Source of the DNA: a virus
Direction: 5' to 3' (one strand)
Virus record (IMG/VR): IMGVR_UViG_3300014323_000033
Location: 1 to 62,724 of that record
DNA length: 62,724 bases
Positions 3,333 through 46,074 of the stretch are shown piece after piece (position 1 is the stretch's first letter; every line of letters begins with the position of its first letter). The notes beneath the pieces were generated by a model. That model worked only from the letters and a program-made list of their open reading frames with translations. It had not been told where the DNA came from and did not search any database. The position numbers were made by a program, and so were the translations under genes.

Positions 3333-3345
3333 AAGGAACCGACCT

Positions 3346-4620
3346 GTGGACCAACCCCTCACGTTTACCAAGCTAGAAGTCTCGAACGTCCTCCGCATCA
3401 AGCTCGTCCGTGTGCGCCCCGACGGCTCCGTGTTCGTCGTCGGCGGCGCCAACGACCAGGGCAAGACGAGCCTCATCGACTCGATCGCCATGCTGCTCGG
3501 CGGCGCCGACGCGATCCCGAAAGTGCCGCTGCGCAAGGGCGCCAAGCGCGGGCATATCATCGGCCGGCTCGGCGGGCCCGAAGGCCACGAGCTCGAGATC
3601 GAACGCACGTTCACCGAGAAGAGCAGCGCGCTCGTGGTGCGCAACGCCGACGGGCAGGAGCAGAAGAGCCCGCAGAAGCTGCTCGCGACGCTCTACTCGT
3701 CGATCTCCTTCGACCCGCTCGAATTCATCAAGGTCAAGCCGCAGGCCCGCGCCGAGCTCGCCAAGCGCGCCATGGGCCTCGACTTCACCGAGCTCGAGAC
3801 GAAGCGCGCGCAGGCCTTCACGGACCGGCACGCCGCGAATAAGCGGGTGCGCGATCTCGAGGGCGAGCTGCGCGGCCTCGGGGAGTACGACGACGACGCG
3901 CCGAAGCAGGAGCAGAGCGCGGCCGAGCTCGCGGGCAAGGTGGCCGACGCCCGCAGCTACGGGACGCGCCTCGCGCTGCTCGAGGAGAGCGTCGCCGATC
4001 GCCGGCAAATGGCCGAGCGGGCCGCCGAGCGCGTCGAGCGGGCAAAGCGCGAGCTCGCGGCCGCCGACGCGGCGCTGCTCGAGGCCGGGCAGGCCTACCA
4101 GGGCGCGCAGGCCGCGCTCACCGAGGCCCAGGGCGCGGCGCCGGACGTGGCCGTGCTCGAGGCGAGCCTGCGCGACGTGGAAGCCGTCAACGCGCGGGTG
4201 CGGCAGAACCAGGCACGCGACGCCAAGGAGAGCGAGCTCGACCGGGCGCGGGGTGACGCCGAGCGGCTCGAGGGCGAGCTCAAGGCCTTCGACGAAGAAA
4301 AGGCGAAGCGGATCGCCGACACGAAGTTCCCCGTCGCCGGCGTGAGCTTCTCGCCCGAGGGGCTCGTGCTCCTCGACGAGCTGCCGTTCGAGCAGGCCGC
4401 ACACTCCAAGCAAATCCGTCTGAGCGCCGCGATCGGCTTCGCGCTCAACCCACGCCTGCGCGTGCTCCTGATTCGCGAGGGCTCCGACCTCGACTCCAAG
4501 GCGCGCAAGCTCCTCGCCGAGATCGCGACGGAGCAGGGCGGGCAGGTCTGGCTCGAGGTGGTGAGCGAGAGCGGCGAGGGCTGCTCGGTGGTGCTCGAGG
4601 ACGGCGAGGTGCAGTCATGA
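3346..4620 (+). CDS. SMC/RecF-like AAA ATPase
   Basis: A 424-residue ATPase, GTG start with GAAAGGA upstream. The N-terminus has a Walker A of SMC/Rad50/RecF type, GGANDQGKTSLID (about residues 33-45). Residues about 140-320 form a long Ala/Glu/Arg coiled coil. The C-terminal lobe begins near residue 335 and includes LRVLLIREGSDLDSKARKLL, in the Walker B/D-loop region. At this size it lacks a full-length SbcC arm. Such proteins are common beside phage exonuclease/RecT genes and probably help recombination or DNA end handling. It overlaps the next gene by ATGA. Confidence 0.75.
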   Translation: MDQPLTFTKLEVSNVLRIKLVRVRPDGSVFVVGGANDQGKTSLIDSIAMLLGGADAIPKVPLRKGAKRGHIIGRLGGPEGHELEIERTFTEKSSALVVRNADGQEQKSPQKLLATLYSSISFDPLEFIKVKPQARAELAKRAMGLDFTELETKRAQAFTDRHAANKRVRDLEGELRGLGEYDDDAPKQEQSAAELAGKVADARSYGTRLALLEESVADRRQMAERAAERVERAKRELAAADAALLEAGQAYQGAQAALTEAQGAAPDVAVLEASLRDVEAVNARVRQNQARDAKESELDRARGDAERLEGELKAFDEEKAKRIADTKFPVAGVSFSPEGLVLLDELPFEQAAHSKQIRLSAAIGFALNPRLRVLLIREGSDLDSKARKLLAEIATEQGGQVWLEVVSESGEGCSVVLEDGEVQS

Positions 4621-11597: not shown

Positions 11598-12323
11598 ATG
11601 AGCAAGCTCATCGCCCCCGCCCTCCTCGCTGCCCTTTCCCTCCTCGCCTGCGCCTCGCCCACGCGCGCGCCGGCGCCGATCGACGTCGAGCCCCCGGCCG
11701 CCGTCGAGCCCGCGCCCGAGCCCGTGGTGCTGCCCACGGCGACCGTCGTGGACGAGCCGCCGCCGGCGCCGAAGCTCCCCGCGATCCGCGTGTGGGTCTC
11801 GCCGCACGTGCAGGAGCAGGAGGGCGTGCGCGCCGCGATTGCGGCTTGGCAGGAGACGACCGCCGGCGTGCGCGATTGGGTCTTCGTGGACGCCACGGCC
11901 GAGGAGCTCGTCGATTCGGAGATCGCGCACAAGGGCCTAGCCGACGTCTCGATCTGGGAGAGCGGCCGGTACCACGCCTGCGGCGCCGAGGAGACCACGC
12001 AGGTCCTCGGCTGCACCATGGTCACCGGCGGGCTCTGGCGGAACGAGAGCGGCGAGTCGATGGCCGCCTGGATGATCAACAGCACCGTCGACGACGAGGG
12101 CCATTCGCAGGAGGGGTACCAGCGCAACCCGAAGCTCGTGGCGATGCACGAGATCGGGCACCTGCTCGGCCTGCGCCACGAGGACGGCGGCATCATGGCG
12201 GCCACGAGCGACGCCGAGCTCGACGCCGATTGGGAGTGCCCGGACGCCGAAGCGGTCGACGCCCTCGAGCGCAAGCTCAAGATCACGGGCCTGCACGCCT
12301 GCGAGCGCCCGGCGGGCTTGTAG
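11598..12323 (+). CDS. Secreted lipoprotein metalloprotease, metzincin type
   Basis: A 241-residue protein with a lipoprotein signal: MSK, a hydrophobic stretch, and lipobox LLAC with acylated Cys at 18. Residues 20-62 are a Pro/Ala linker. The catalytic domain has HEIGHLLGLRH (H184, E185, H188, H194), the HExxHxxGxxH zinc site of metzincins, and a Met turn GGIM (M200). Four Cys (128, 139, 214, 235) may form disulphides. It should be anchored in an envelope membrane and cleave proteins outside the cytoplasm. It is flanked by hairpins and appears to be an independently controlled accessory gene. Targets are unknown; surface remodelling of the infected host is a possibility. Confidence 0.85.
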   Translation: MSKLIAPALLAALSLLACASPTRAPAPIDVEPPAAVEPAPEPVVLPTATVVDEPPPAPKLPAIRVWVSPHVQEQEGVRAAIAAWQETTAGVRDWVFVDATAEELVDSEIAHKGLADVSIWESGRYHACGAEETTQVLGCTMVTGGLWRNESGESMAAWMINSTVDDEGHSQEGYQRNPKLVAMHEIGHLLGLRHEDGGIMAATSDAELDADWECPDAEAVDALERKLKITGLHACERPAGL

Positions 12324-12354: not shown

Positions 12355-13371
12355 ATGCGAACGCTACTTCTGACCGGAATCGGGGGGTTCATCGGCTCGC
12401 ACGTCCTCGAGGCCGTGCTGCGTGAGACCGATTGGAACGTGATCGGCGTGGCCTCGTGGCAGCACCGGGGGACGCCCGAGCGCGTGCTCGAGGTCTGCCG
12501 CGAGGTGGCGCCCGGCGACGCGCGCGCCCGGGTGACGATGCTCACTCACGACCTGAGCGTGCCGTTCGCGCCGCGCACCCGCGCGCGGATCCTCTCGGCC
12601 GCTCCCGACGTCGTCATCAACTGCGCCGCCGAGAGCCACGTCGACCGGAGCATCACGGACCCGGCCATGGTGATCGCCAACAACGTCGGCGTCGCCGTGA
12701 CCATGTTCGAGCTTGCCCGCGAGCTCAAGCTGCGCGCGTTCCTGCAGGTGAGCACGGACGAGGTCTACGGCGCGGCGCCGCCCGGCCGCGCTCACGCCGA
12801 ATGGGACGCGATCGTGCCGTCGAATCCCTACTCGGCGAGCAAGGCCGCGCAGGAGGCCGTCGCGATCTCGTACTGGCGCACCTACGGCGTCCCGCTCGTG
12901 CTCACGAACACGATGAACAACTTCGGCCCGCGCCAGGACCGCGAGAAGTACCCGGCCAAGATCGTCCGCTCGCTGCTCACCGGGGAGGAGCTCACGATCC
13001 ACGGGCGCGAGGGCTCGATCGGCTCGCGCTTCTACCTGCACGCGGCCTGCCACGCCGACGCGCTCCTCTGGCTCCTGCAGCACAAGCCCTTCCCCTCGAG
13101 CTACGCCGGCGGCGCCGAGCGGCCCGATCGGTGGAACGTGGTCGGGGACGCCGAGCTCGACAACCTCGCGTTCGCCGAGACGATCGCCGGCCTCATGGGG
13201 CGCCCGCTCCGGTACCGGCTCGTCGATTTCCACGAGACGCGGCCGGGCCACGACCGCCGCTACGCGCTCGACGGGCGGAAGCTCAAGGCCGCCGGGTGGC
13301 GCCCGCCGATGGACTTTGCGAGCTCGCTCTCGAGCTGGCTCGAATGGTCGCTCAGTCACCCCGAGTGGTGA
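12355..13371 (+). CDS. NAD-dependent nucleotide-sugar epimerase/dehydratase (RmlB-like)
   Basis: A 338-residue extended short-chain dehydrogenase. It shows TGIGGFIGS (residues 7-15) for NAD binding, CAAESHVDRSI (90-100), the dehydratase motif STDEVYG (133-139) and the catalytic YSASK (159-163). STDEVYG and SHVDRSI are characteristic of dTDP-glucose 4,6-dehydratases, so it likely makes a 4-keto-6-deoxy sugar nucleotide, though other 4,6-dehydratases or epimerases are possible. Two glycosyltransferase-type genes lie at 16.4-18.4 kb, suggesting a glycan-modifying set. It converges with the leftward arm; the stops overlap by 20 bases. Confidence 0.82.
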   Translation: MRTLLLTGIGGFIGSHVLEAVLRETDWNVIGVASWQHRGTPERVLEVCREVAPGDARARVTMLTHDLSVPFAPRTRARILSAAPDVVINCAAESHVDRSITDPAMVIANNVGVAVTMFELARELKLRAFLQVSTDEVYGAAPPGRAHAEWDAIVPSNPYSASKAAQEAVAISYWRTYGVPLVLTNTMNNFGPRQDREKYPAKIVRSLLTGEELTIHGREGSIGSRFYLHAACHADALLWLLQHKPFPSSYAGGAERPDRWNVVGDAELDNLAFAETIAGLMGRPLRYRLVDFHETRPGHDRRYALDGRKLKAAGWRPPMDFASSLSSWLEWSLSHPEW

Positions 13372-16401: not shown

Positions 16402-17727
16402 ATGCCCCGCTTCTCGATCCTCACGCCGCTCTACGCGAAAGCGAACCCCTTCGTGCTCGAGACCTACCGGACCCTACAGCGGCAGTCGGTGGCGGATTGG
16501 GAGTGGATCGTCCTGCTCAACAACGACGGGTGCCTGCCCGCCGAAGCTCTGCAAGACCCAAGGGTGAAGCCGGTCGGCCCCGTGCTCGTGCCCGAGAAGC
16601 AAGGGATCGGGTTCCTCAAGCATGCGGCCGCGAGCTACGCCGAGGGCGAGCACCTCGTCGAGCTTGACGCCGACGACCTGCTCGACGACGAATGCCTCGG
16701 GCACCTCGGGCGCGCGTTCGAGGGGGGCGCCGATTTCGTCTACAGCGACTTCGCCGAGTTTCATCACGAGACGTGGACGCCCGCCTGGTACGCCGCCGAC
16801 TTCGGCTGGCAGCAGTACGGCGTGATCCGCGACGGGCACCCGCTGATCGCGATGCGAGCACCGGAGGCCACGGCGCAGAACATGCGGTCCGTCATGTGGG
16901 CACCGAATCACGTGAGGGCCTGGCGCACGAGCGTGTACCGCGAGCTCGGCGGCCACGACCCGAAGCTCGCCGTCGCCGACGATCAGGACCTCATGCTGCG
17001 GCTCTACCTCGCGGGCCGCTCGATCGTGCACGTCCCGCGGTGCCTGTACTTCTACCGGGTGCACCCGCAAAACACGACGAAGAGCTCGAACGCGGAGATT
17101 CAGCGCGTCGAGGCCGGGGTCTACCAGCGGTACCGAATGCGGCTCGCCGAGACGTGGGCGCGCCGTGCGGGCCTGCGCTGCGTGGACCTCTGCGGCGGGA
17201 TCAACCCCTACCCGGGCTTCGACGTGCTCGACGCCGTGGGCCGCGACGATTGGGCGCAGCTCGGCACGCTCGAGGGAAACCTGCGCGGCGAGCAGCCGCT
17301 CAACCTGCGTTGCGATCTGAACGGGCCCTGGCCGCTGCCCGACAACTCCGTCGGCGTGCTGCGCGCGAGCGACGCCCTCGAGCACCTGCGGGATCCGGTG
17401 CACGTGATGAACGAGGCCTACCGCGTGCTCGCGCCCGGCGGCTGGCTCATGACGCACACGCCGTCGACGGACGGGCGCGGCGCCTTCTGCGACCCGACGC
17501 ACGTGTCGTTCTGGAACGAGCTCTCGTTCCGCTACTACACCGATCAGGCTTTCGCGCGCTTCGTGCCGCGCTTCGTGGGCCGCTTCCACGAGGCGCGCAA
17601 CGTCTCGACGTTCTTCCCGGACGACTGGCACCGGGATAACAAGCTCGCGTACGTGCAGGCCGACCTGATCGCGCTCAAGCCCGGCTACTGCCCGTTGGGC
17701 CCGGTTCGGTGGCCTTCCCGGTTGTGA
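16402..17727 (+). CDS. Fusion of family-2 glycosyltransferase and SAM-dependent methyltransferase
   Basis: A 441-residue protein on the strand opposite to its neighbours. Residues 1-240 are a GT-A glycosyltransferase: FSILTPLY at the start, ELDADDLLDDE with the DxD metal site (D89, D91), then HVRAWRTSVYRELGGHD and VADDQDLMLRL, typical of GT2. Residues about 250-425 form a class I methyltransferase: CVDLCGG for the SAM loop, then RASDALEHLRDPVHVMNEAYRVL..GG. Such fusions build O-methylated glycans. It is an island in the leftward arm and converges with the next gene, overlapping it by 53 bases, so it is probably a separately acquired gene. The acceptor is unknown. Confidence 0.85.
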   Translation: MPRFSILTPLYAKANPFVLETYRTLQRQSVADWEWIVLLNNDGCLPAEALQDPRVKPVGPVLVPEKQGIGFLKHAAASYAEGEHLVELDADDLLDDECLGHLGRAFEGGADFVYSDFAEFHHETWTPAWYAADFGWQQYGVIRDGHPLIAMRAPEATAQNMRSVMWAPNHVRAWRTSVYRELGGHDPKLAVADDQDLMLRLYLAGRSIVHVPRCLYFYRVHPQNTTKSSNAEIQRVEAGVYQRYRMRLAETWARRAGLRCVDLCGGINPYPGFDVLDAVGRDDWAQLGTLEGNLRGEQPLNLRCDLNGPWPLPDNSVGVLRASDALEHLRDPVHVMNEAYRVLAPGGWLMTHTPSTDGRGAFCDPTHVSFWNELSFRYYTDQAFARFVPRFVGRFHEARNVSTFFPDDWHRDNKLAYVQADLIALKPGYCPLGPVRWPSRL

Positions 17728-18403
17728 TCTGCAGCCGGAGCGTTCGCATGTCGGCCTCGACGCCGGCCGTGTCCTCGAGCCGGTACTCGTAGCGCCCGGC
17801 GTGGCGCGCTCGCACCCGCGTGTCGGCGAGCACGGCGACGCCGGCGGCCGTGGCGCGCTCGCAAAAGCAGGTGTCGTCGGTGGGGTACTCGTCGCCGATC
17901 GCGTAGGGCATCCAAGCGGGCCGCACCTCGAGCCCGTCCACCTTGAGGCGAGGGAGCTTGTTCATCTCGCACACGCGCAGGAAAACCGCCGCGCTGAACG
18001 CGACGAGGCCGAAGCCGACCGCGCGCACCGGCACAAGGTGCCCGCCTTCGTAGGCGATGAGCTTCTCGGGCAGGCCGCAGCCGACCACCTTCCCGCGCTT
18101 CTGCTTCGTCGAGTAAAGCGCGCCCACGACCGCGCGCCGTTCGATCGCGGCGTCTAGCATCCTGAGCGCCTCGGCCGCGTCGAAGATCATGTCGCTGTCG
18201 ACGCAAAGCATCGCCTCGCCGTTCACCCGCAGGGCGTGCGCCGCGCTGATGGCCCGGCCGCGATCCACGTTCGCGCAGCCGAGCACCGAGCAGTCGAAGA
18301 GCGTGTCGCCGCGCTCGTGCAGCGCGTGCCCGAGCAGGTCGATGCACCTTGAGTGCCCGGGGTCGAGGTAGTCACGGACCGGCCTGCAGAGAGCGACGCG
18401 CAT
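17675..18403 (-). CDS. Glycosyltransferase-like protein (GT-A fold)
   Basis: A 242-residue protein. LCVDSDM (residues 67-72) gives a DxD metal/nucleotide-sugar site, and RGRAISAAHAL precedes it as in phage glycosyltransferase-like proteins. Later come VVGALYSTK and GDEYPTDDTCFCERATAAG, resembling the D.FC..A..AG segment of these enzymes. It lies 10 bases downstream of the collagen-like fibre gene and is read with it, so the fibre or virion surface is a possible substrate. The end overlaps the convergent fusion gene. Confidence 0.75.
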   Translation of the reverse strand: MRVALCRPVRDYLDPGHSRCIDLLGHALHERGDTLFDCSVLGCANVDRGRAISAAHALRVNGEAMLCVDSDMIFDAAEALRMLDAAIERRAVVGALYSTKQKRGKVVGCGLPEKLIAYEGGHLVPVRAVGFGLVAFSAAVFLRVCEMNKLPRLKVDGLEVRPAWMPYAIGDEYPTDDTCFCERATAAGVAVLADTRVRARHAGRYEYRLEDTAGVEADMRTLRLQITTGKATEPGPTGSSRA

Positions 18404-18413
18404 GCGTCGCAGC

Positions 18414-21296
18414 CTAAACGAATCCGAGCCGCCCGTGGAATTGGTGTTGCCCCCAGCGGCGGTACTTGTTGAAGGTCGCCTGCGTCACCTTGCTCGGCAC
18501 GATGACGAGGTCGTGGACGACGCCGTGGAACTGCAGCGCGTTCCAGGTCAAAAACACGATCAGGCGGTCGATCGTGCTGAGCGCCGAGCCCTGGGAGCCG
18601 GAGAATTCCTCCGTCTTGCCCGCCCACATGTTGGCCGTGCCGCCGCCGACGGCCCACCCGAAGCAATTGGGCACGTCGCACACGTCGTTAGTTCCGACCG
18701 CGGGCGATCCGGAAGTGTCGACCCGCATCTTGTCGGACAGCTCCATTGAGAAGAACGCGGTTTCGCTGAGCGCCCCGTTGACCCAATCGCACACGGGCGG
18801 GTAGGTACTGCGGCCGCCGTCAACGGTCGCGGTCAGCAAGACCGAATAACTCGGGTTCGTTCCGTTCGGCAGCCCGCGCAGCGTCGCGGTCGTAGCGGCG
18901 TTCCCGTCGCTCGACTGGAATTGGTAGAACTGTACGCCGGTGAACGCGCCGCCGACGGAGTTGCCACCCCACGCCGGCGCATTCGCGCCCGTCGGCTGGA
19001 CGAGGTGGCACGAGTTGCCCGAGCGGTCGGTGACGCTCTTGATCGCGTCGCCCACCTCGCACGCATCGCTGAGCGCGGTGTCCTCGAAAACGAAGCCGTC
19101 GAGGAAGGACCACCAGGCGACCGGCGAGAGCTGCGCCGGGGTCCACTCGGCGGTGCCGCTCGGCGCGCGCGTGATGATCTCGATCGCGAGCCGCATGTCG
19201 CGGTCGGGCGCGTAGGCCGTGAGGATCTCGCCGCGGTAGACGTCGATCGCCGCGCGCTTCGGCATTGGCAGAAACCCGAGCAGCGACCACGCCGCGGTAT
19301 TCGACAGCGTCGCATTCCACGTGTTGGCCAGGCCCGCGTCCTGGATCGCGTTCCAGTACGCCTGCTCCAGCGCGATCCCGATGCCAGCGGCCGCACTGCC
19401 CGCTGCGCCCTGCTGCAGGATCTCCCAACGCCCGTCCGGATCGGGGAAGGCGTCGATCGTCCCGCCGCTATCGAACGCCACGAAGGCTAGCGCCACGGTG
19501 CGCCCGTCGAAGCGGCCGGTCCTCGTCTTGCTGGTGGCGTCCGTTTTGAGCCACCCGGGCGAGTGGACCGCCGTGCCCGTGTTCGTGAAGTTGCGCAACA
19601 GGACCACGTTGTTGGCGATCGTGGTGGAGTCCCACTCAAACAGGTTGCCGTTGTCGTCGGTCGTCGGCAGCGCGTAGACGGCCGCGATGCAGCGGCCGGT
19701 CGTTCCCGTAAGCGTCACGGTGACGCTGCCGCCCTCGGTGCCCGTCGAAACGCGCCCATAGAGCTTGTGCACGAAGGTCCCGACCGTCGCGCTGTCGATG
19801 AGCGTCCAGCCCGCCGGATCGGAGATCGCGCCATTCTCCGCGGCGATGTCGAGCAGCAGGAAGGAGCCGACGCCGTTGCTGGGAATGGTCGGTGCGATCG
19901 ACACCGCGTTCAGAATGTTCGCGATGGTGCCCAGCGTCACCGTGAAGATCGGGCCCTCGGGCGCGAGATAGTAAGCGCGGTTCGAGCCGTCGCCGCCGGC
20001 GTTGTAGACCGTCTGCGCCCAGAGCTCGACGCCGCCCACGCGGAAGTGGACGTCGTAGTTCCCAGCGCCGTCCGTGTCGGTGCTCGACTCGACGACGAGC
20101 ATGAATTCGGTCAGCAGCGCGTCCTGTTGGATGACGAGGCCCGAGTTGCGTTCGTCGGTGCCCGTCGGCCAGGACCCGATCCCGGGGGACGCGACCAGGA
20201 AGCCCGGCACGCCGAATTCGGCCTCGCTCGACAGCGTCAGCACCGGCAGCGGCCCGGTCGCGCCCTGCGTGCCCTGGGTCCCCTGCGTGCCCTGAGGACC
20301 GGCGTTGCCGACCGCCCCCTGCGTGCCCTGGCTCCCCTGCGCGCCGGCGGCGCCCTGGGCCCCCTGCGCGCCGGCGTTGCCCTGCGCGCCTTGCGCTCCG
20401 GCGGCGCCCTGAGCTCCTTGGGCCCCTGCCGCTCCTTGGGCCCCTGCCGCCCCCTGGGCGCCTTGTGCGCCGCTCGCGCCCTGCGCACCCGCCGCACCCT
20501 GCGCGCCGCCTGCGCCCTGCGCTCCTGCGGCGCCCTGGGCCCCCTGCGCCCCTTGGGGCCCGTCGACGCCGTCCTCGCCCTGCGGTCCCTGCACGCCGCC
20601 CACGCCGTCGTCGCCCGGGTCGCCCGGGTCGCCGTCCACGCCGAAGGCACCGAAGAACCCGCCGGCGCCGAGCGGCCCCTGCGCGCCCTGAGCTCCTTGC
20701 GGGCCCGGGTCACCGACGCGCCCCTGCGTGCCCTGCGGCCCCTCGCCGAGGCCGCCACCGACGCCGCCCGCCGAGATCGCGCGAATGATGTCGTTGACGA
20801 CCTTGGCCCACGAATCGACCGAGTACTCGTCGCGCTCGCCCTTCACCATGGGTCGCAACACGAGGCCGTCGGGGCCGTCGACGGTGACGGCGATCACGCG
20901 CTCGACCACGAGCGCCGGATCGATCCGCGGCGGCGTGCCGGAGCTGCCGCCGTTCACCACGGAGCGCACGACCCACGCGGCCACGAAGTCGAGGTCGGCG
21001 GGCACGGTGCAGGAGATCGAGCCACGCGGGCCCGCCGTCGGCGTTACGAGCGGCCCGCTCGAGCTGCCCACGAGCTCGAGGTTCGGCACGTCGGGCTGCG
21101 ATTTCCCGGGCGGGTTCGCCGTGAGCACGCTCTCGTTCGTGCGCGCGCCGCCGGCGACCTGGAGCTCCCACGCGAACACGCCCTCGGGATCGAGCAGCGT
21201 GAAAGTGAGCACGTCGCCGGGCAGAGCCACGAAGCCGCGTTCGTCGCTCTCGACGTCTCGAGCTTCACAACGGATCTTGAAATCGGGGCGGGCCAC
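18414..21296 (-). CDS. Large collagen-like tail fibre / receptor-binding protein
   Basis: A 960-residue protein, GTG start. Residues 1-183 are an N-terminal adaptor related to that of the fibre at 41916-43295 (shared GFVA.PG..LTFTL.DP.GV..W.L and later WVVRSV/WIVRSV). Residues about 184-348 are collagen-like Gly-X-Y triplets, mainly GAQ, GAA and GTQ, expected to form a trimeric shaft. Residues 349-700 are beta-rich. About 705-945 contains SVTDRSGNSCHLVQP and a jelly-roll pattern like LamG/concanavalin domains, a likely glycan-binding tip. It follows the baseplate genes in the leftward operon. Confidence 0.82.
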   Translation of the reverse strand: MARPDFKIRCEARDVESDERGFVALPGDVLTFTLLDPEGVFAWELQVAGGARTNESVLTANPPGKSQPDVPNLELVGSSSGPLVTPTAGPRGSISCTVPADLDFVAAWVVRSVVNGGSSGTPPRIDPALVVERVIAVTVDGPDGLVLRPMVKGERDEYSVDSWAKVVNDIIRAISAGGVGGGLGEGPQGTQGRVGDPGPQGAQGAQGPLGAGGFFGAFGVDGDPGDPGDDGVGGVQGPQGEDGVDGPQGAQGAQGAAGAQGAGGAQGAAGAQGASGAQGAQGAAGAQGAAGAQGAQGAAGAQGAQGNAGAQGAQGAAGAQGSQGTQGAVGNAGPQGTQGTQGTQGATGPLPVLTLSSEAEFGVPGFLVASPGIGSWPTGTDERNSGLVIQQDALLTEFMLVVESSTDTDGAGNYDVHFRVGGVELWAQTVYNAGGDGSNRAYYLAPEGPIFTVTLGTIANILNAVSIAPTIPSNGVGSFLLLDIAAENGAISDPAGWTLIDSATVGTFVHKLYGRVSTGTEGGSVTVTLTGTTGRCIAAVYALPTTDDNGNLFEWDSTTIANNVVLLRNFTNTGTAVHSPGWLKTDATSKTRTGRFDGRTVALAFVAFDSGGTIDAFPDPDGRWEILQQGAAGSAAAGIGIALEQAYWNAIQDAGLANTWNATLSNTAAWSLLGFLPMPKRAAIDVYRGEILTAYAPDRDMRLAIEIITRAPSGTAEWTPAQLSPVAWWSFLDGFVFEDTALSDACEVGDAIKSVTDRSGNSCHLVQPTGANAPAWGGNSVGGAFTGVQFYQFQSSDGNAATTATLRGLPNGTNPSYSVLLTATVDGGRSTYPPVCDWVNGALSETAFFSMELSDKMRVDTSGSPAVGTNDVCDVPNCFGWAVGGGTANMWAGKTEEFSGSQGSALSTIDRLIVFLTWNALQFHGVVHDLVIVPSKVTQATFNKYRRWGQHQFHGRLGFV
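20253..20747 (-). repeat. Collagen-like triplet repeat tract (tail fibre)
   Basis: A tract of 9-bp periodicity encoding about 165 residues of Gly-X-Y. The DNA is highly repetitive (GCCCCTGC / GCGCCCTG units), so slippage and recombination with the similar tract at 42294-42782 are likely. It is coding repeat, not a CRISPR array. Confidence 0.85.
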
Positions 21297-21328
21297 GCTC
21301 CGAAGCTACCCGCGCCGTGCCCGGCCGG

Positions 21329-24506: not shown

Positions 24507-26072
24507 TCAGAAATCGTACACGCCGACGTTGCGGGGAACCAGCATGTAGGGGCCGTCGCTCACGTTCACCGGCACGCGGGGCTCGCTCGGCGTCATGTCG
24601 AGGAGCGTGAAGCGGAAGAGCGACGCCCCGAGCGCGTCCTCGACGTACCGTTGGATGCCGCTGCCGCCGAAGTAGCTGGCGCGGATCGAGGGCTCGACGC
24701 GGCGGAAGGCCACCGGGCCCCGAATGTCGTTGGCGAGGTCCACCACCTCACCCGGGCCGAGCGAATCGAAGTAGTCGCGGATCGCCTTGCCGAGCTCGAC
24801 GAGCCGGCCCGAGTAGGGCGAGACGCGCGCGCCCACGGGCAAGGCCTCGCCACCGACCGAGAGCGCAACGTCGAATTGCCCCGGGTCGCCGGCGGCCACC
24901 ACGCTCGAGACCTGCAAGCGTTTGAAGATCGAGAGCGCGGGGTCCCACCACATGAGTTGCGGGATCACGTCGCCCGACGGCGTCGCCTCCTCCTGCGTTT
25001 GCATGCGGAAGCCGGAAGTACTCGGCGCCGGCGTGTCGAGCACGACCGCGGGCTGCTCGTCGCCGTGCGGCCACGCGATGGCGTCGAACCAACCGGCGTT
25101 CGTGTTGCGCCGCATGCCGAGCCGCAGCACGACGTCGGAGTACTCGGGCTGCCACGGCGTCACGATCGTTCGCACCTGCCCGGGGACCTCGCCGCTCACG
25201 GGCGGCGTGAGGAACCCGCGCACGACCGTCATGGTGCCGACGCTCGGCAGGCGGCCGAGCGGGCCCGTGCTCGTGCCGCGCTTCTGCACGACGGCCACGC
25301 CCACCGAGCCCGAATGATCGGCGGTCGGGTAGACGAACGCATCGCTCACGGCGTTCGAGGCCTGCCGCGCCCAGAGCCGGAAATGCGCCTCGTTGCCGGC
25401 GCCGGCGGGCCGAGCTCGGAGGTCGATCAGGCGCGCCGAAAACTCGGCGTCGGTCTCGCGGTTCGTTCCGCCGGTGAACGCGACCTCGACGGTGCACGTG
25501 GGCGCCGAGCCCGGCGGCGGGTTGACCCACTTGAGCACGGCGCCGACCTGCAGCTCCGTGTCGGGGCCGGTGCTCACGCCCTGCACGGCGAGGAGGACGC
25601 CCTCGTCCGGGTCGTCGACCTCGCCCGTGATGATGACCTGGTAGGTGAGGCCCTGCTCGTCGGTGGCCTGGATCGCGGTCTGGTCGGGGATCGCCGTCGA
25701 GCCCTGCCATTCCGTCCCGAGGACGCCGAGCGCGCGCACGTACCCGCTCGCGCCCGTCGCCGGCAGCGGCTGCGTTTTGCGCTGCGTGCCGTGGAAGGTG
25801 TAGAGGAACGGCGACGCGGCGCGGCCCGGGTCGATGTTCTGCGCCAGGAAGTCGCCGCGCTTCTGCACGACCTGCAGCACGATGTCGATCGCCTCGGCCT
25901 CGACCCAAAAGCGGCCGGGTTTCATGGTCGAGCGGCGGATCGTGGTCTCGTCGTAGAGCTGCCCCGTCACCGGATCGCGCTGCCCGCGCAGCGAGTTGCG
26001 GTAGGCCGTGAGCATGGCGTCGCGCGCTTCGCCTCGCGCGTAGGTGGGAAATTCGCGGTCGATTAGCGTCAT
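24507..26072 (-). CDS. Baseplate J-like protein (Mu gp47 / P2 gpJ family)
   Basis: A 521-residue protein. The middle has the baseplate-J pattern: VLKWVNPPPGSAPTCTVEVAFTGGTNRETDAEFSARLIDLRARPAGAGN, where GGTN/RETDAEFR.R and GN....FR.WA are hallmark strings. VSDAFVYP and a later beta domain follow. It forms the baseplate wedge that ties the hub to fibres in contractile tails. ATG overlaps the end of the gp46-like gene. Confidence 0.85.
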   Translation of the reverse strand: MTLIDREFPTYARGEARDAMLTAYRNSLRGQRDPVTGQLYDETTIRRSTMKPGRFWVEAEAIDIVLQVVQKRGDFLAQNIDPGRAASPFLYTFHGTQRKTQPLPATGASGYVRALGVLGTEWQGSTAIPDQTAIQATDEQGLTYQVIITGEVDDPDEGVLLAVQGVSTGPDTELQVGAVLKWVNPPPGSAPTCTVEVAFTGGTNRETDAEFSARLIDLRARPAGAGNEAHFRLWARQASNAVSDAFVYPTADHSGSVGVAVVQKRGTSTGPLGRLPSVGTMTVVRGFLTPPVSGEVPGQVRTIVTPWQPEYSDVVLRLGMRRNTNAGWFDAIAWPHGDEQPAVVLDTPAPSTSGFRMQTQEEATPSGDVIPQLMWWDPALSIFKRLQVSSVVAAGDPGQFDVALSVGGEALPVGARVSPYSGRLVELGKAIRDYFDSLGPGEVVDLANDIRGPVAFRRVEPSIRASYFGGSGIQRYVEDALGASLFRFTLLDMTPSEPRVPVNVSDGPYMLVPRNVGVYDF

Positions 26073-36302: not shown

Positions 36303-36779
36303 CTACGCGCGCACCGGGCCCGAGGCCATGAATTCGCCAAGGATGAGGTCGCTCGTGGTGTCGGCGATCCCCTCGAGGTCCACGTCTAGGAAGTCGCGCA
36401 GCGGGATCACGGTGCGCGGCTCTTCGCTCACGTGGAAGATCGCGTAGGGGACGTCCGTGAACGCCTGCGCCTCGAGGCCTTCGTGCGCCGGCGTGACCGA
36501 GCCCGCTAGATTGCCCGTGTCCTGCAGGAGCTTGCGGTTCTGGCCCTCGGCCGTGCCGGTGCGAATGCGCTCGACGAGCTGCCCGATCCGCCCGGCGCGC
36601 TTGGGCCAGGGCCCCTGCTCGAACCCGCGCTCGTCTTGGAAATTCTGCTCGACCGCGGCGACGAGCTCCTCGGCCACCACCTCGGCGACGCCCTGCAGGT
36701 TACCGCCGCGCGAGAGCGTCTCGTCGACGACCTTCCGGAGCTGCTCGGTCCCCCGGAGCTCGCTCTTGACGGCGACCAC
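36303..36779 (-). CDS. Virion morphogenesis protein (Mu gpG / P2 gpS-like)
   Basis: A 158-residue protein, GTG start. It has the tail-completion pattern ..AVEQNFQDERGFEQGPWPKRAGR......G.NRKLLQDTGNLAGSVTP, in which F....P.G..W..R followed by ILxDTGxLxxS is diagnostic of the family. The end has a YAIFHVSEEPRTVIPLRDFL strand region. It joins head to tail in contractile phages. Lies next to the gp36-like gene as in Mu. Confidence 0.82.
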   Translation of the reverse strand: MVAVKSELRGTEQLRKVVDETLSRGGNLQGVAEVVAEELVAAVEQNFQDERGFEQGPWPKRAGRIGQLVERIRTGTAEGQNRKLLQDTGNLAGSVTPAHEGLEAQAFTDVPYAIFHVSEEPRTVIPLRDFLDVDLEGIADTTSDLILGEFMASGPVRA

Positions 36780-37918: not shown

Positions 37919-38998
37919 TCAGATGACGGCGTCTTTGATGAGGCCGCCGACCGTATTCGCGATGAACTGCACGTCTTCCGCGTGGCCCGCGACGAGCTTC
38001 CGGCCGCCCTCGAGGCCCCGGTTGTCGTCGAAGAATTCGCGGCTCACGTACCCCGTGCCGCTGCTGCCCTTCGTGCGGAAGGTTTGCAGGGTGCGAACGC
38101 CCGTGCCCGATTCGGCCGAGCCGAGGTCGCTCACGAGCACGACGTCGTTCGGCATGATCGGCACCACGAGACCGGTGTCTTCGTCGAGCACGCGCGCGCC
38201 CACGATGTGGAAGGGCGGGAAGCCCGGCAGGCGGAAGTCGAGCAGGCGCTGCAGCTCCTGCACGCTCATCCCCGAGAGGTCACCCGGCGCGACGGGGTTG
38301 TCGCCCATCATCTGCCGCATGTAATCGCGGGTCGCTGCGTGAGCGAGGAACGTGTCGCGCACCTCCTCGCCGAAGTAGATCCCCGTGACCGGCTGGTAGC
38401 TCGCGCGGCACCGGAGCTGCAGGTCGAGGATCGGGTTCGAGTTGACGCCGCCGTTCCACTTGGTGGACGAGTCGAGCGTCGTCTTTTGCCCGGTGGCCCA
38501 GTTGGCGGCCGTGGTGAGCAGGTCCCACACGCGCAGCTCACGGTCGAGGTCGAGGCCGAGCCGGATCCGGTTCGCGGCTTCGCGGCTCAGGTCGTACGCG
38601 GCCTGGGCCTCGGTGGCCGTGGGCAGGAACGTCCCGAGGGCACGCGGCACCACGAGGTAGCTGTCGAGCGCGGAAGCCGGGTCCACCTCACCAACGGGGC
38701 TCTGGTACGACGTCTCGACGTTCACGCGTCGGAAGACGTTGTTCAGGCTCATGTTGCGGAAGCGGTCCTGATCCTTGTCGACCAGCTTGATCGGAGCGAC
38801 CTCGTCGGCGCGCCACACGCTGTACGGCTGGAAGCTCGCGAGGAACTGATCGAGCTCCTCGACGCTCGCCACGTCGATCGGCGAGAGCGAAAGCAGATGC
38901 TTCGTGATCGACTGCAGCTCGGCGTCGGTCGCCATCGTGACGTTGCCGGCGCCGGCCGCCATGAGCGCCGCGAGGGAGGTGCGAAGATTTGCAGACAT
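37919..38998 (-). CDS. Major capsid protein
   Basis: A 359-residue protein, of usual length for a HK97-fold capsid protein. Position after protease/scaffold and decoration genes and before the connector genes is decisive. A central LDLDRELRVWDLLTTAANWATGQKTTLDSSTKWNG followed by NSNPILDLQ is a pattern typical of this class (L..S.KW....SNPI.D...). C-terminal half has GARVLDEDTGLVVPIMPNDVVLVSDLG. A good terminator follows, in line with high expression. Confidence 0.82.
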   Translation of the reverse strand: MSANLRTSLAALMAAGAGNVTMATDAELQSITKHLLSLSPIDVASVEELDQFLASFQPYSVWRADEVAPIKLVDKDQDRFRNMSLNNVFRRVNVETSYQSPVGEVDPASALDSYLVVPRALGTFLPTATEAQAAYDLSREAANRIRLGLDLDRELRVWDLLTTAANWATGQKTTLDSSTKWNGGVNSNPILDLQLRCRASYQPVTGIYFGEEVRDTFLAHAATRDYMRQMMGDNPVAPGDLSGMSVQELQRLLDFRLPGFPPFHIVGARVLDEDTGLVVPIMPNDVVLVSDLGSAESGTGVRTLQTFRTKGSSGTGYVSREFFDDNRGLEGGRKLVAGHAEDVQFIANTVGGLIKDAVI

Positions 38999-39055: not shown

Positions 39056-39526
39056 TTACGGCCCGGCCCCTTGCGGGCCCTGAGCGCCCTGAGCGCCCTG
39101 CGCACCCTGAGCACCTTGAGCGCCCTGAGCGCCTTGCGCGCCGCCCGAGAGGACCGCGACGCCGAAGTTGAATTCGCCCTCGCTCGTGTCGCCGTCCTCG
39201 GCGTCGAGGAGCGCCGTGCCGACGACCATGTCGCCGCCGGCCGCCGCCTTGAGCGCGCCCGTCGCCGTGGGCGCGAGCGGGTTGCCCGCGCTGATCGAGC
39301 CGCTCGCCTTGTAGTGCCAACGGCCCTCGCGCACGAGGTCGCCGTTGCCACCGTTCGGGATGACGCTGTGGGTGAGCCCCACGCAAACGTCGGTGTCGGC
39401 CGTGGGCAGCTTCACCGCGTCGACGCCGTTGGCGGTGTCGAAGATGACGGCGAGGAACGCACCGAGGTCGGCGCCGGTGCGGTTGCGGCCCGGTCGGAAC
39501 CGCTCGGGATACGTGGGTTGCTCCAT
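39056..39526 (-). CDS. Head decoration-like protein with collagen-like tail
   Basis: A 156-residue protein directly upstream of the capsid gene. Residues 1-124 are beta-rich (FLAVIFDTANGVDAVKL, GRWHYKASGSISAGNPLAPT, GTALLDAEDGDTSEGEFNFGVAVL), as in small decoration proteins encoded between protease and capsid. Residues about 125-156 are nine Gly-Ala-Gln/Gly-Pro-Gln triplets ending GAGP. A trimeric capsid-surface protein with a short collagen-like whisker is the likely structure. Confidence 0.68.
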   Translation of the reverse strand: MEQPTYPERFRPGRNRTGADLGAFLAVIFDTANGVDAVKLPTADTDVCVGLTHSVIPNGGNGDLVREGRWHYKASGSISAGNPLAPTATGALKAAAGGDMVVGTALLDAEDGDTSEGEFNFGVAVLSGGAQGAQGAQGAQGAQGAQGAQGPQGAGP

Positions 39527-41915: not shown

Positions 41916-43295
41916 CTACGCGTACTTGATGCTCGCCCAAACCTCATGGGTCGGGCCGATCCCGCTGAAATTCGTTTTGACCGCGATCTTGTCCCCGCGC
42001 GAGACCGCGACCGTGTGGGTGTCGTCTGCGAGCGCGAGCTCGAACCCGGTGAACGAAACGGTGAGCGCCGTTGCGCTGCCGTTCTTGTAGACCGTGAAGG
42101 TCGGCCCGGAGTCGAGGCCGCTCTCGGCGCTCACATAGAAGTTCTTGAGCGTGCCGTCGCGGTTGAGCACCACCTGCCCGTCGGCCTCGGCGACGAAGGG
42201 CTGGCCCGCCGGCGATCCCACGTTGAAAAAGTCCTGGCCGGTGCCGGTCGCTCCGGCATCGACGCCGAAGTAAAGGCCGGGCTCGACGTTGCTGCCGGTG
42301 GGCCCCTGCGTGCCTTGCGTGCCTTGCGTGCCCTGCGTGCCTTGGGCGCCCTGGACGCCTTGGCTGCCCTGCGCGCCTTGAGCACCTTGGGCGCCGGCCG
42401 CACCCTGAGCACCTTGAGCACCCGCTGCGCCCTGAGCTCCTTGCGCGCCGGCGTTGCCTTGAGCACCCGCTGCGCCCTGCGCGCCTTGAGCGCCCGCTGC
42501 ACCTTGGGCACCCGGCGCGCCCTGCGCACCCGCCGCGCCCTGGGCTCCTTGCGCACCCGCCGCACCCTGAGCGCCGGCCGCACCTTGCACGCCCTGCGCG
42601 CCGGCAGCGCCGTCGTCGCCCTGCGGCCCGTCGATCCCGTCGTCGCCCTGCACGCCCTGCGGCCCTTGAACGCCGGGGTCACCCTGCGCGCCCTGCGGCC
42701 CGCCCGTGCCCTGCGCGCCTTGGTTCCCCTGGGCGCCGGCGGCACCTTGCGCACCCTGCGGCCCTTGCGGTCCCTGCGCGCCGCCGCCCCCGCCGCCGGC
42801 CTGCAGAATGCGCAGCGCCTTGTTGATGGCCTCCGCCCACGTGAGCGACGAGAACTGCTTGAGCTCGGTCGGCACCATGAGGCGCAGGCCCGAGCCGTTC
42901 GCGTACACGACCATGCGCTCGAAAATCTTCGTCGGGTCCGGGCGGCCGAGCGCGTCGGTGCCGGAGTCGATCACGCTGCGCACGATCCACGAATGCAGCT
43001 CGTCGCCGGTGTCGGGGAACGCACACGTGATCTCGCCGGCGGGCGAGCCGGGCGAGCGCACGTACTGCCCGGTGGTGGCGCCCACGAGATCGAGCACGGG
43101 CGCGCCGTCGGAGCACTCCGGAGGGTTGACCAGAATGTCGGCGCCAGGCGTGTACGCGCTCGGGTCGAAGACGCGCAGGCGCCAGGTCTTCACGCCGTCC
43201 GGATCGCGCAGCGTGAACGTGAGCGTCGCGCCAGGCGTGGCGACGAAGCCCGCGTCCTCGCCGTCGTCGTTGATGTCGAACCGAGGGCTGGTCAC
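41916..43295 (-). CDS. Collagen-like fibre encoded within the head genes
   Basis: A 459-residue protein, GTG start. Residues 1-170 are an adaptor domain related to the first 183 of the fibre at 18414-21296. Residues about 172-334 are Gly-X-Y collagen-like triplets (GAQ, GAA, then GTQGTQGTQG). Residues 335-459 are a beta-rich tip with DGQVVLNRDGTLKNFYVSAESG and FTVYKNGSATALTVSFTGFELAL, like a jelly-roll head. It lies between the gpF-like gene and the protease gene, which suggests a head fibre rather than a tail fibre. Confidence 0.75.
   Translation of the reverse strand: MTSPRFDINDDGEDAGFVATPGATLTFTLRDPDGVKTWRLRVFDPSAYTPGADILVNPPECSDGAPVLDLVGATTGQYVRSPGSPAGEITCAFPDTGDELHSWIVRSVIDSGTDALGRPDPTKIFERMVVYANGSGLRLMVPTELKQFSSLTWAEAINKALRILQAGGGGGGAQGPQGPQGAQGAAGAQGNQGAQGTGGPQGAQGDPGVQGPQGVQGDDGIDGPQGDDGAAGAQGVQGAAGAQGAAGAQGAQGAAGAQGAPGAQGAAGAQGAQGAAGAQGNAGAQGAQGAAGAQGAQGAAGAQGAQGAQGSQGVQGAQGTQGTQGTQGTQGPTGSNVEPGLYFGVDAGATGTGQDFFNVGSPAGQPFVAEADGQVVLNRDGTLKNFYVSAESGLDSGPTFTVYKNGSATALTVSFTGFELALADDTHTVAVSRGDKIAVKTNFSGIGPTHEVWASIKYA
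42294..42782 (-). repeat. Collagen-like triplet repeat tract (head-region fibre)
   Basis: Encodes about 163 residues of Gly-X-Y with 9-bp periodicity, similar in triplet choice to the tract at 20253-20747, including the GTQ run at the C-terminal end. High similarity between two tracts 21.5 kb apart on the same strand makes recombination between them possible. Confidence 0.85.
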
Positions 43296-43328
43296 GGAGC
43301 GAGGCTAGCGACCGCGCGCCCGGCCCCG

Positions 43329-44342
43329 CTAGAGCAGCCCGCCCACGGTCGAGACGAAACCCTTGTCGGGCACCTCGGCGAGGTCGCTCTCGACCGGGCC
43401 ATCGTAGCTCGCGGGCAGCGAGCGGAGCCGGTGCCGGCAGTTGAAACCCCACGGCGGGATCTTGCCCTTCCAATTGGGGTTGTCGGCCCGCATGACGGCG
43501 TTGTTGTGCTGCGCGTGCCATGGGCGCTCGCGCGGCGGCCCGTCGCCCACGCCGACGACCTGCCAGAACGGACGCACCTTGAGCACGCTCGGGCGCATCA
43601 TGTGCTCGAGGCGCCCGGCGCTGTACGCCTTCTGCACGTTGGTGCGGAAGATCGTTTCCACGTGCGACGGGCTCTTCGGCGTCCAGCCGTTCGAGACGAG
43701 CCGCTGCTCGACGAACGCGCGGAAGCTTCGGAGGTCCGCGCCCTCGGCGACCTGGCGCGCGAGCTCCTGCTGCGCGACCTTGAGCATGGACTTCTTTCCG
43801 AGGCCCGCGAGCGTGAACGCCTTCTCTTGCGCCTTGCTGTCGAGCGCGTCGAAGACGCGGCGCGTGACGGGCTTGAGCTCGAGGAACTTGGCGACCGCCG
43901 TCTGGTAGGGCAGCGAGTCGAAGCCGATGAACTTGAAAACGGTCCCCACGTCGACGAGCCGGCGCGCCGTGGCCTGCACGCTCGCGGGCTCCTCGAACGC
44001 CGGCGCCGCGATCTCGTTGTCGGTGCTCACCTCGTAGGCGCTGTCCATCGCGCCGAGCATGACGCCGTGAGTGAGCGACTGCTGCAGCGGGTCGGCGAAG
44101 AGCTTGACCGCGCTCGGCGGGATCGCGTCGGCGAGCGCCTGCAGGATCGCCTCGGGTGTCGAAAGCCCGTCGACGGCGAGGCCGATCATGCTCACCCAAT
44201 GACCAGTCACCACGGAGCCGTCGGCGACGCCCGTGTCGATGATCGTCTCGGGCGAGCCGTTGACGCGCTCGGCTTCCTTCTCGGTGAGCAGGTGCGGCGG
44301 CAGCGCCGCGCAGATGGCGCAGCTACTCGTCGCGGTGCTCAT
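43329..44342 (-). CDS. Minor head protein (Mu gpF / SPP1 gp7-like)
   Basis: A 337-residue protein starting at the ATG at 44342, overlapping the portal stop by 20 bases. The C-terminal half has the gpF hallmark: RSFRAFVEQRL....WTPKSPSHVETIFRTNVQKAYSAGR, VGVGDGPPRERPWHAQHNNAVMRADNPNWK and PPWGFNCRHRLRSL. The F.TN...AY..GR and P.G..CRC/CRH strings are diagnostic. It sits inside the head near the portal and is probably ejected or assembles the connector. Confidence 0.85.
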   Translation of the reverse strand: MSTATSSCAICAALPPHLLTEKEAERVNGSPETIIDTGVADGSVVTGHWVSMIGLAVDGLSTPEAILQALADAIPPSAVKLFADPLQQSLTHGVMLGAMDSAYEVSTDNEIAAPAFEEPASVQATARRLVDVGTVFKFIGFDSLPYQTAVAKFLELKPVTRRVFDALDSKAQEKAFTLAGLGKKSMLKVAQQELARQVAEGADLRSFRAFVEQRLVSNGWTPKSPSHVETIFRTNVQKAYSAGRLEHMMRPSVLKVRPFWQVVGVGDGPPRERPWHAQHNNAVMRADNPNWKGKIPPWGFNCRHRLRSLPASYDGPVESDLAEVPDKGFVSTVGGLL

Positions 44343-46074
44343 CGGCGAGCCCCGAGGGAGGATCGAACGCCGGCCTGATGAGCCCGCCCTCGGTCGCCGG
44401 CGTGGGGAGCTCGGAGGGCGGCACGGGCTGCCCGGGTGGTGGCGTGCCGGGTGGCGCAGGAGCGGGCGGCGGCGGCTGCGCGGGTGGCGCTCCGGGGTTC
44501 GTCGGCGGCGGCAGGACGCCGAGCGGCTCGGCCGGCGGCAGCTCAAGCTCGCCGGGCTTCGGCGTCTTGCCCTTCGGGTAGACGATGCGAACGCGCGGCG
44601 TGGGCTCGGGGAACCCGGGTTCGGCCTGCTCGGCGATCTCCTGCAGGAACGCCTCATGCGCCTCGTCGGGGATCCGGTAGCCCGCGCGCTCGTGCGCCTC
44701 CTCGAGCGCGATCTTTAGGCCGGCGCTCGTGGCCTCCTTGATCCGCGTGACCTCCTTGTCGCGGTCGACCATGGCCTCGAGCTTCGTCCGGTAGATCGGC
44801 GCGTAGGGCATGGCCTGCTCGCCGTAGTTCAGGAGGACGATCTCGTCGCACAACTGCTGCTCGATCGCTTCGTCTTCGTCCATGCAATCGGCCGCGATGA
44901 TGAGGTCCTCCTCCGAGAGGTGCGCGTCGCCGATGCTCGAGCCGAGGCCCGTGCTCACGGCGTCGGTCGTCCCCGTCGCGCCGAGGATCAGTTTCGAGAG
45001 CACGAAGCGCGCGTCGTCGATCGACTCCTTGTGCGTCTGCGAGCTGCCGGGGCCGGGCTGGAAGAACCCCGCTTTCACGCCGGGCGCGAGCCAGAACGCC
45101 TGCTTGCTGCTCATGTTCTGCAGCACCTCGAACGCGTCCTGGATCAGGTCCGCCGAGGCCGGGCGGTCGCCGTCGGAGTACGCCCAGCGCCACGGCTTGG
45201 CGAATTGCTCGAGGAGCTCGAGGCGCTCGCGCGTGCCGAGCCGTTGGAAGTACGACCAGTAGAGGCACCGGAGCTGCAGGCCCTCGAGCTCGGCGTAGTC
45301 GTCGAAGAGCTGCGGTTGGAACGCGAGGAACTTGCCCGGGAAGTCGTTGAGCCGGATCCCGTGCACGGTCGTGTTGAACCCGCCGTCACTCCAATCGTCC
45401 ACGAGCACGAGCTCACGCTGCGCCGTGAAGGACACGCGCCGCGGGTGCACCCAATGCAGGCCGACGAGCTTCCACGCCTCGGGGCGGGCGAGGCCGAGCT
45501 CGGGCCCGGGGACGACCTTCCATTCCTTCTCGAGCACGGCGCGGCCGTCCCACACACCCCAACGCAGGCGGCGCCGCGCGCGCCGGAAGTCCTTGAGCGA
45601 CATCAACTGCGAGCGGACGTGATCGGCGATCTCCTTGGCGAGCTCGGCGTCGAAGCCGCGCACGCCCTCGCCCGTGTTGGCGACGACCTCCCATTCGAAC
45701 ACGCTCGCGCGGTTGAGCCGCTTCTGCAGGAGCCCGGACGTGTGGCCGTCGAGCAGCAGTGACTCGCGGCCCATGTCCGTCACCTCGCGCATGCGGCCGC
45801 GCATGACGTTGCGGATCGAGAGGTCGATGCGGTCGAGGTCAAGCGAGCGCCCGAAGTAGGTCCGGGCCTGCTCGGTCTTCGGCAGCTTGCCCGTGAGGCG
45901 CTGCGCGAGCTCGAGACGGTTGAGCCCCGAGTAGAGCGCGCGCACCCCGGCCCGCTCGAGCTGGCGCGCCCGTCGTTCGTTGCGGCGCTCCTCGAGCTCG
46001 CGGCGGCGCTCGCTCCGGGCGTTGCCCTTGGTGACCTTGGGTGTGCGCTTCCCAGTGAGAGCGGCTCGGGCCAT
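44323..46074 (-). CDS. Portal protein (DUF935, Mu gp29-like)
   Basis: A 583-residue protein, ATG at 46074. It has the DUF935 portal pattern: DIDLSIRNV.RGRMREVTDMGRESLLLDGHTSGLLQKRLNRASVFEWEV, WDGRAVLEKEWK, HWVHPRRVSF, YWSYFQRLGTRERLELLEQFAKPWRWAYSD, and FVLSKLILGATGTTD. The C-terminal 90 residues are Pro-rich. It forms the dodecameric DNA entry/exit ring. The next gene is the gpF-like protein, as in Mu. Confidence 0.85.
   Translation of the reverse strand: MARAALTGKRTPKVTKGNARSERRRELEERRNERRARQLERAGVRALYSGLNRLELAQRLTGKLPKTEQARTYFGRSLDLDRIDLSIRNVMRGRMREVTDMGRESLLLDGHTSGLLQKRLNRASVFEWEVVANTGEGVRGFDAELAKEIADHVRSQLMSLKDFRRARRRLRWGVWDGRAVLEKEWKVVPGPELGLARPEAWKLVGLHWVHPRRVSFTAQRELVLVDDWSDGGFNTTVHGIRLNDFPGKFLAFQPQLFDDYAELEGLQLRCLYWSYFQRLGTRERLELLEQFAKPWRWAYSDGDRPASADLIQDAFEVLQNMSSKQAFWLAPGVKAGFFQPGPGSSQTHKESIDDARFVLSKLILGATGTTDAVSTGLGSSIGDAHLSEEDLIIAADCMDEDEAIEQQLCDEIVLLNYGEQAMPYAPIYRTKLEAMVDRDKEVTRIKEATSAGLKIALEEAHERAGYRIPDEAHEAFLQEIAEQAEPGFPEPTPRVRIVYPKGKTPKPGELELPPAEPLGVLPPPTNPGAPPAQPPPPAPAPPGTPPPGQPVPPSELPTPATEGGLIRPAFDPPSGLADEHRDE

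Follow-up and report, generated by a model that had tools for sequence, protein, structure and literature searches.

The window analysed here is a virus record of IMG/VR (IMGVR_UViG_3300014323_000033) with a length of 62,724 bases and a GC content of 70.6%. Its genes are those of a phage with a contractile tail and include sheath, baseplate J, tape measure, Mu-like portal, Mu-F-like protein, capsid protein and terminase. Its minus strand carries two fibre genes, P0002 in the tail module (18414..21296, 960 amino acids, GTG start) and P0003 in the head module (41916..43295, 459 amino acids, GTG start). Both proteins combine a homologous N-terminal anchor with a homologous collagen-like shaft, both gene positions are kept in two viruses, and an outgroup has a single copy of the anchor at the tail position. 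We consider it probable that the two genes encode paralogous trimeric fibres, P0002 serving as the tail fibre of the baseplate and P0003 as a fibre on the head side of the particle.

In the course of events that would account for these observations, the N-terminal anchor of a tail fibre, probably a beta-sandwich followed by a trimer-starting helix, acquired a shaft of collagen triple helix about 48 nm long, and the resulting gene was duplicated in an ancestor of the window virus and of a relative represented by the sequences L040 and L049. P0002 would have stayed at the baseplate as a tail fibre with a large tip, P0003 would have been transferred to the head module before the divergence of the two viruses, and each copy would have evolved separately since the duplication. 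Built onto the capsid surface, a vertex or the neck, P0003 would present a smaller, faster-evolving tip on its shaft, which may help the particle to meet or hold the host surface.

Adaptors, shafts and tips of the two fibres

The N-terminal adaptor comprises residues 1-178 of P0002 (20763..21296, minus strand), delimited by alignment with its family and with a predicted helix at its end before the shaft, and residues 1-168 of P0003 (42792..43295, minus strand). Using blastp without filter, the two adaptors could be aligned end to end over 179 alignment columns with 37% identity (E 3e-32). The local score of the pair was 266, compared with a mean of 33.3 and a maximum of 58 in 2000 shuffles, which places it 42 standard deviations above the shuffles, and a profile-profile comparison gave a probability of 100 (E 2e-68). 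The original prediction, made from the window sequence, had proposed an adaptor common to both fibres and had named a lack of similarity between the N-terminal domains as its refutation; the alignment it called for was run, the domains are clearly similar, and this refutation therefore failed at the sequence level.

What we call the tail-fibre adaptor family is defined in the present analysis. A nine-row alignment revealed a full-length N-terminal match from residue 1, with a block T-x-x-L-x-D-x-x-G-V-x-x-W and C-terminal W, N and R as invariant columns, and the GTG starts of P0002 and P0003 are backed by family members beginning at the same residue. When 34 profiles, made from structural proteins and from pieces of the fibres, were compared all against all, the adaptors were the only paralogous pair among the best 15 matches listed; the next matches were tip pieces that overlap by construction, followed by a match with a probability of 12. 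Since the adaptors alone form such a pair, no duplicated head and tail docking partners are visible among these matches.

The adaptors are followed by collagen-like shafts of 165 residues with 55 GXY triplets in P0002 (residues 186-350; 20247..20741, minus strand) and of 168 residues with 56 triplets in P0003 (residues 169-336; 42288..42791, minus strand). The GXY repeats are uninterrupted in both, and Pfam Collagen (PF01391) matches with E 6e-21 for P0002 and 1e-24 for P0003. The near-equal length that had been predicted (about 165 and 163 residues) therefore holds, and at a rise of 2.9 Å per residue, the value used in PMC3368898, both shafts have a calculated length of about 48 nm. Aligned with each other the shafts score 551, whereas shuffling the triplets of one of them gave 469.5 (standard deviation 15.7) and reached the observed score in none of 1000 shuffles. 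The similar triplet order had been missed by the original prediction. Judged by this comparison, the shafts are homologous too, sharing triplet order as well as length. The near-equal length itself is either kept or a coincidence; it is not fixed, because the shaft of the head copy in L040 has 50 triplets.

Synonymous codons at identical residues match at 52 of 116 positions in the shafts (expected 46.5, standard deviation 4.2) and at 46 of 66 in the adaptors (expected 41.4, standard deviation 2.4). Because this agreement is about what codon use predicts, there is no clear sign of recent copying, and a recent gene conversion between the shafts, which we considered, is unsupported. Measured by these sequences the duplication is old.

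The tips differ, as predicted. The tip of P0002 has 610 residues (18417..20246, minus strand) and that of P0003 has 123 (41919..42287, minus strand); no similarity between them was detectable, the observed score being reached by 165 of 1000 shuffles. Neither tip matched a family in Pfam or PHROG, apart from one insignificant Pfam match at E 0.15. A relationship of the tips to the neighbouring protein P0006, or of the small protein P0005 to P0006, was tested and rejected.

Relatives with one and with two adaptor copies

IMG/VR contig 3300021174_000038 is a syntenic relative that has both adaptor copies in the corresponding places; L040 and L049 are the two ends of this one 24,209-base record. 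L040 is syntenic with the window from the tail hub to Mu-F, with 44-87% identity per protein except for the fibre tip, and its head fibre lies between gpF and P6, as in the window. The head fibres of the two viruses are identical at 64% of positions in the adaptor (106/166), 75% in the shaft (112/150) and 34% in the tip (40/116), and the contrast between adaptor and tip fits the roles of an anchor and of an exposed end. The L049 end contains the tail module and the tail adaptor, followed by collagen. This adaptor is 58% identical to that of P0002 over all comparable columns and 64.5% over the best 124-residue piece; the copy (L049:415-941) is crossed by a short N run and a frame change, where the exact sequence is lost, and the contig ends within the shaft. 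Orthologues thus share 64% (head) and 58-64% (tail) of residues, compared with 36-42% for paralogues. The four adaptors of this lineage agree in 46 of 158 comparable columns, and in 27 columns the head pair and the tail pair are each fixed for a different residue.

Seven outgroup records, all of which may be fragments, contain one adaptor match each: G385, G386, G387, G388 and G389 from IMG/VR, and G296 and G376 from Myxococcota. In all seven a relative of baseplate J lies upstream of the adaptor gene, 1.8-3.6 kb away and on the same strand (the spacing in G376 spans two adjoining loci), and the longest GXY run is at most three; for three of the genes this covers a part of the gene. At the adaptor locus G388 and G389 are nearly the same sequence. 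G389 has portal and terminase genes, the G296 contig has portal, terminase and capsid genes, and neither yielded a second adaptor match. Two adjoining fibre-like genes of G389 (L055:344-1663 and 1774-3873) lie towards the head module and have PHROG matches named 'head decoration' and 'tail fiber'. Comparison of the window adaptors with those of the Myxococcota prophages using hhalign gave a probability of 87 (E 4e-6). A tree of ten adaptors placed the four adaptors of the window lineage together (100/100) and, among them, the two head copies together (95/94). The proposed duplication of an adaptor-plus-shaft module is well supported, because both parts are homologous, a second virus has both copies at the same places, and the seven outgroup members have a single copy, at the tail position and without collagen.

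These relatives were not found directly. Using tblastn, the adaptor gave nothing in 50,697 phage records, automatic peptide patterns of the adaptor gave nothing in IMG/VR, and an adaptor search of genome contigs was also empty; full P0002, portal and sheath likewise gave nothing in the phage records, nor did portal and terminase alone in IMG/VR. These early null searches are a limit of the method, since a looser hand-made pattern later found family members. The route led from the sheath to Myxococcota genomes, from there to the prophage G296 with a weak full-length adaptor match, and then to the looser DNA pattern, which hit 13 stretches in IMG/VR. Six of these proved to be true members of the family; the adaptors of L029 and L039 are near-identical. 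The other seven were dropped as having little beyond the pattern in common, yet L033 and L035 reached E 5e-5 and E 2e-4 in a test with 13 sequences. A first hand-made pattern had yielded one stretch, which was unrelated. Within 377 Myxococcota genomes, a two-row profile matched four at E 0.01, all judged to be chance after the frames were read, and a three-row profile matched three, with G296 and G376 being real. G068 was judged a chance match of 63 residues inside an unrelated frame, though the window profile gave E 1.3e-5 among the loci, and a weak match in G006 (E 0.9) was rejected after reading. Since the first profile missed both G296 and G376, absences from the Myxococcota genomes are weak.

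Virion site of the head-module fibre

The two genes differ in their surroundings. P0002 is located downstream of the baseplate genes, within 2-4 kb of the baseplate J gene (24507..26072, minus strand; PF04865, E 2.5e-23) and on the same strand, a placement that its orthologue in L049 shares. Neither P0003 nor its L040 orthologue has this position; both lie in the head module. P0003 is flanked on one side by the upstream gene of a Mu-F-like minor head protein (43329..44657, minus strand; PF04233, E 1e-9; phrog_220). On the other side follow P0006 (41427..41867, minus strand; 146 amino acids, 54% identical to its L040 orthologue), the protease-like P0004 (39592-41427, read from sequence and gene place and matched by no family), P0005 in the position of a capsid decoration protein (39056..39526, minus strand; phrog_673, E 1e-6) and the major capsid protein gene (37919..38998, minus strand; phrog_1005, E 2e-17). 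Coordinates, strand and neighbours thus agree with the prediction of one fibre gene in the baseplate region and one between head genes. Retargeting of the module to separate places on the virion, as further proposed, agrees with the kept gene positions and with the independent evolution of the copies; both fibres may, as also proposed, have one attachment partner in common.

The original prediction had missed a further structural protein with collagen, the third in the window, which bears on the head site. P0005 has 156 residues and ends in nine GXY triplets (39062-39142), and its L040 orthologue (59% identical) ends in seven. The label 'decoration' comes from gene position and size; the sole non-collagen PHROG match is named 'head scaffolding', and a decoration protein of the DUF2190 type, which was considered, was not reported by Pfam. 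A precedent is gp12 of phage SPP1, a collagen-like capsid protein whose gene is described as lying between the scaffold and major capsid genes (PMC6316719, PMC7602432). The two share a collagen repeat and a gene next to the capsid gene, with the scaffold gene on the other side in SPP1 and the protease-like gene in the window. As described there, SPP1 gp12 has 64 residues and a central collagen-like fold, whereas in P0005 the collagen is C-terminal; the N-terminal domain of P0005 gave no match by tblastn in the phage records at E 5 and has no detectable relation to SPP1 gp12. Because P0005 carries collagen beside the capsid gene in both viruses and SPP1 gp12 provides a precedent, the head of this virus is likely to bear collagen, and a head site for P0003 therefore becomes more plausible.

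A narrower form of the head-side reading places P0003 at the neck, as a collar fibre docking on head-completion and tail-terminator proteins instead of the capsid shell. Its model is gp40 of Vibrio phage XM1, described as a trimeric neck spike whose immunoglobulin (Ig)-like N-terminal domain of about 100 residues binds the neck proteins gp4 and gp5 (PMC10457771). We modelled the adaptor from seven sequences, with a mean predicted local distance difference test (pLDDT) value of 53.8 and the better part in roughly the first 40 residues and in residues from about 101 to 132; a model from two sequences was useless (pLDDT 38). The model has seven strands and then a C-terminal helix leading to the shaft. 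Foldseek found nothing at E 0.001 (best E 2e-3), and the best re-aligned fold matches, with Z up to 7.9, were sandwiches of the PKD and Ig-like kinds, a similarity that according to the tool may reflect only a common arrangement. The model suggests, without proving it, an Ig/PKD-like sandwich, and to this extent would be compatible with a neck fibre. However, the adaptor profile matched no solved phage fibre: a search of solved structures returned 12 sequences at E up to 10, the best at 0.045 (the Ig domain of LAIR1). The P0003 gene also adjoins gpF and the protease-like region and not the neck gene at 36303-36779. We regard a neck fibre in this strict sense as rather unlikely.

According to a further alternative, the two fibres occupy a single tail site, either in neighbouring rings or as a mixed fibre set, and the location of P0003 in the head module is a mere gene translocation. 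The Ig-like domains of FibL and FibU of Staphylococcus phage 80-alpha, reported to form stacked rings of the same baseplate (PMC7048315), are a model for it, the tail position of all seven outgroup adaptors would put the ancestral docking site at the tail, and the 46 columns common to the four lineage adaptors agree with one docking site. On the other hand, P0003 has kept its place among head genes in both viruses, the synonymous codons give no sign of recent exchange, and the 27 differently fixed columns separate the copies. A shared tail site seems unlikely to us. The precedents of XM1 and 80-alpha thus give opposite answers on the site of P0003. The weakest alternative, that unrelated fibres resemble each other by chance or convergence only through low-complexity collagen shafts, could draw on the absence of a significant match between full P0002 and full P0003 in default blastp and on the GAQ and GAA triplets predominating in both shafts, but the profile match and shuffle scores of the non-collagen N-terminal parts already refute it at the sequence level and leave it next to no probability.

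Several points weigh against a tail fibre and a head-side fibre derived by duplication. Gene position is only a proxy for virion location, and since XM1 gp40 is a fibre at the head-tail junction, 'head side' cannot be narrowed further. Both copies were found in just one relative, whose tail copy is interrupted by the N run; the adaptor tree carries a long-branch warning and does not resolve the nesting of the head pair among the tail copies; and the adaptor model is weak, with all fold matches below Z 8. Even so, we think that P0003 is probably located on the head side, the neck included.

A bolder picture, which we put forward tentatively as possible rather than probable, is a 'collagen-coated' phage with matched collagen fibres of about 48 nm at both ends of the virion and a collagen-tailed protein in the capsid lattice, in which one baseplate anchor was re-specialised for the head or capsid. 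If true, fibres of a single origin would serve host contact on the head side and on the tail side. Discussions of phage anchors usually treat them as tied to a single docking site. The pair is dated, as the duplication precedes the split of the two viruses and the outgroup has a single copy at the tail, and would offer a clean system for an anchor changing its docking partner, with the 27 differently fixed columns as first candidates for this change. The window would also add an example of a tailed phage with collagen on its head side, and its genome has three structural genes whose products bear collagen. Should both fibres prove to be tail-located, it would be a second system like 80-alpha with an odd gene order.

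Upstream elements, neighbouring genes and known systems

Five structural gene starts on the minus strand, those of both fibres and those at 26527, 35235 and 37238, are preceded by TAGNNT at -12 to -7 of the start codon. The element reads TAGCTT before P0002 (21303..21308, minus strand; TAGCCT in L049) and TAGCCT before P0003 (43302..43307, minus strand). The pattern TAGNNTN6RTG has five matches in the window, all at predicted starts, where 1.25 are expected, and L049, with the minus strand considered, keeps TAGNNT before its tail fibre gene and before its orthologue of the gene at 26527. It looks like a -10 element feeding leaderless transcripts. A longer upstream block, GGCCGGGC..CG..TAGC.TCG, precedes both fibre genes (21301-21326 and 43300-43325, minus strand), which agree there in 20 of 30 bases; a copy with two mismatches precedes P0006 (41872-41897, minus strand); three matches compare with 0.09 expected.

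A tRNA search of the window found none. The terminase (47882-49516) shares 39-49% of its residues with the terminases of Virus Rctr16k and of phages and prophages (L004-L010). As the remaining genes fetched from these show hardly any match to the window, the packaging gene seems to have moved independently of the structural genes. Rctr16k and L005-L010 were dropped as outgroups, having essentially the terminase alone in common with the window, plus two short weak matches. Together with the outgroup adaptors, the terminase relatives hint at a host among Myxococcota and related groups. Beside the tail fibre gene lie two glycosyltransferase-like genes, the adjoining one at 17675-18403 (weak, phrog_34859, E 0.009) and a second at 16402-17727 (GT2, E 5e-7); these and a GDP-mannose-dehydratase-like gene at 12355-13371 might modify the fibres or host glycans. 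The window further contains a matrixin-like metalloprotease gene (11598-12323; Pfam Peptidase_M10, E 2e-5) and a ParB-like domain fused to an N6/N4 DNA methyltransferase domain (53786-55120).

Four known systems, each compared here on the basis of a part of the cited paper, resemble the fibres in single respects. The EPclA-D proteins of E. coli O157:H7 prophages share the order of N-terminal domain, helical piece, collagen rod and C-terminal tip, and EPclA is reported to be a trimeric dumb-bell (PMC3368898); they differ in having the PfN domain (PF08400), which neither window adaptor matches. Phage phi29 gp8.5 is described as a trimeric fibre anchored on the head through an N-terminal base domain, dispensable for infectivity and possibly aiding attachment; it differs in its beta-tulip base and helical supercoil, and the available part of the source mentions no tail paralogue (PMC7602432). 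XM1 gp40 is likewise a trimeric spike, held at the head-tail junction by its N-terminal Ig-like domain; different are its coiled-coil shaft and tailspike-like end, and no tail paralogue is mentioned in the corresponding part of that report (PMC10457771). A fold like that of the Ig-like N-terminal anchors of XM1 gp40, of 80-alpha FibL and FibU and of BppU may be compatible with our weak adaptor model, and no phage fibre was among the sequences returned by the profile search of solved structures.

The closest parallel in arrangement is 80-alpha, with two fibres per virion that have paralogous Ig-like N-terminal anchors and different distal parts, FibU containing a collagen-like stretch (PMC7048315). 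There, as reported, both fibres are part of one baseplate, only one is collagen-like and the anchors are 21% identical, in contrast to 37% in the window pair, and the window fibre genes lie in different modules, unlike those of FibL and FibU. Judged by titles and the starts of abstracts, we recognised no paralogous pair of head and tail collagen fibres in the open full-text PMC literature, which is not proof of absence. Taken together, the twin fibres of the window are a new variant of a known theme, with 80-alpha FibL/FibU, XM1 gp40 and SPP1 gp12 as precedents.

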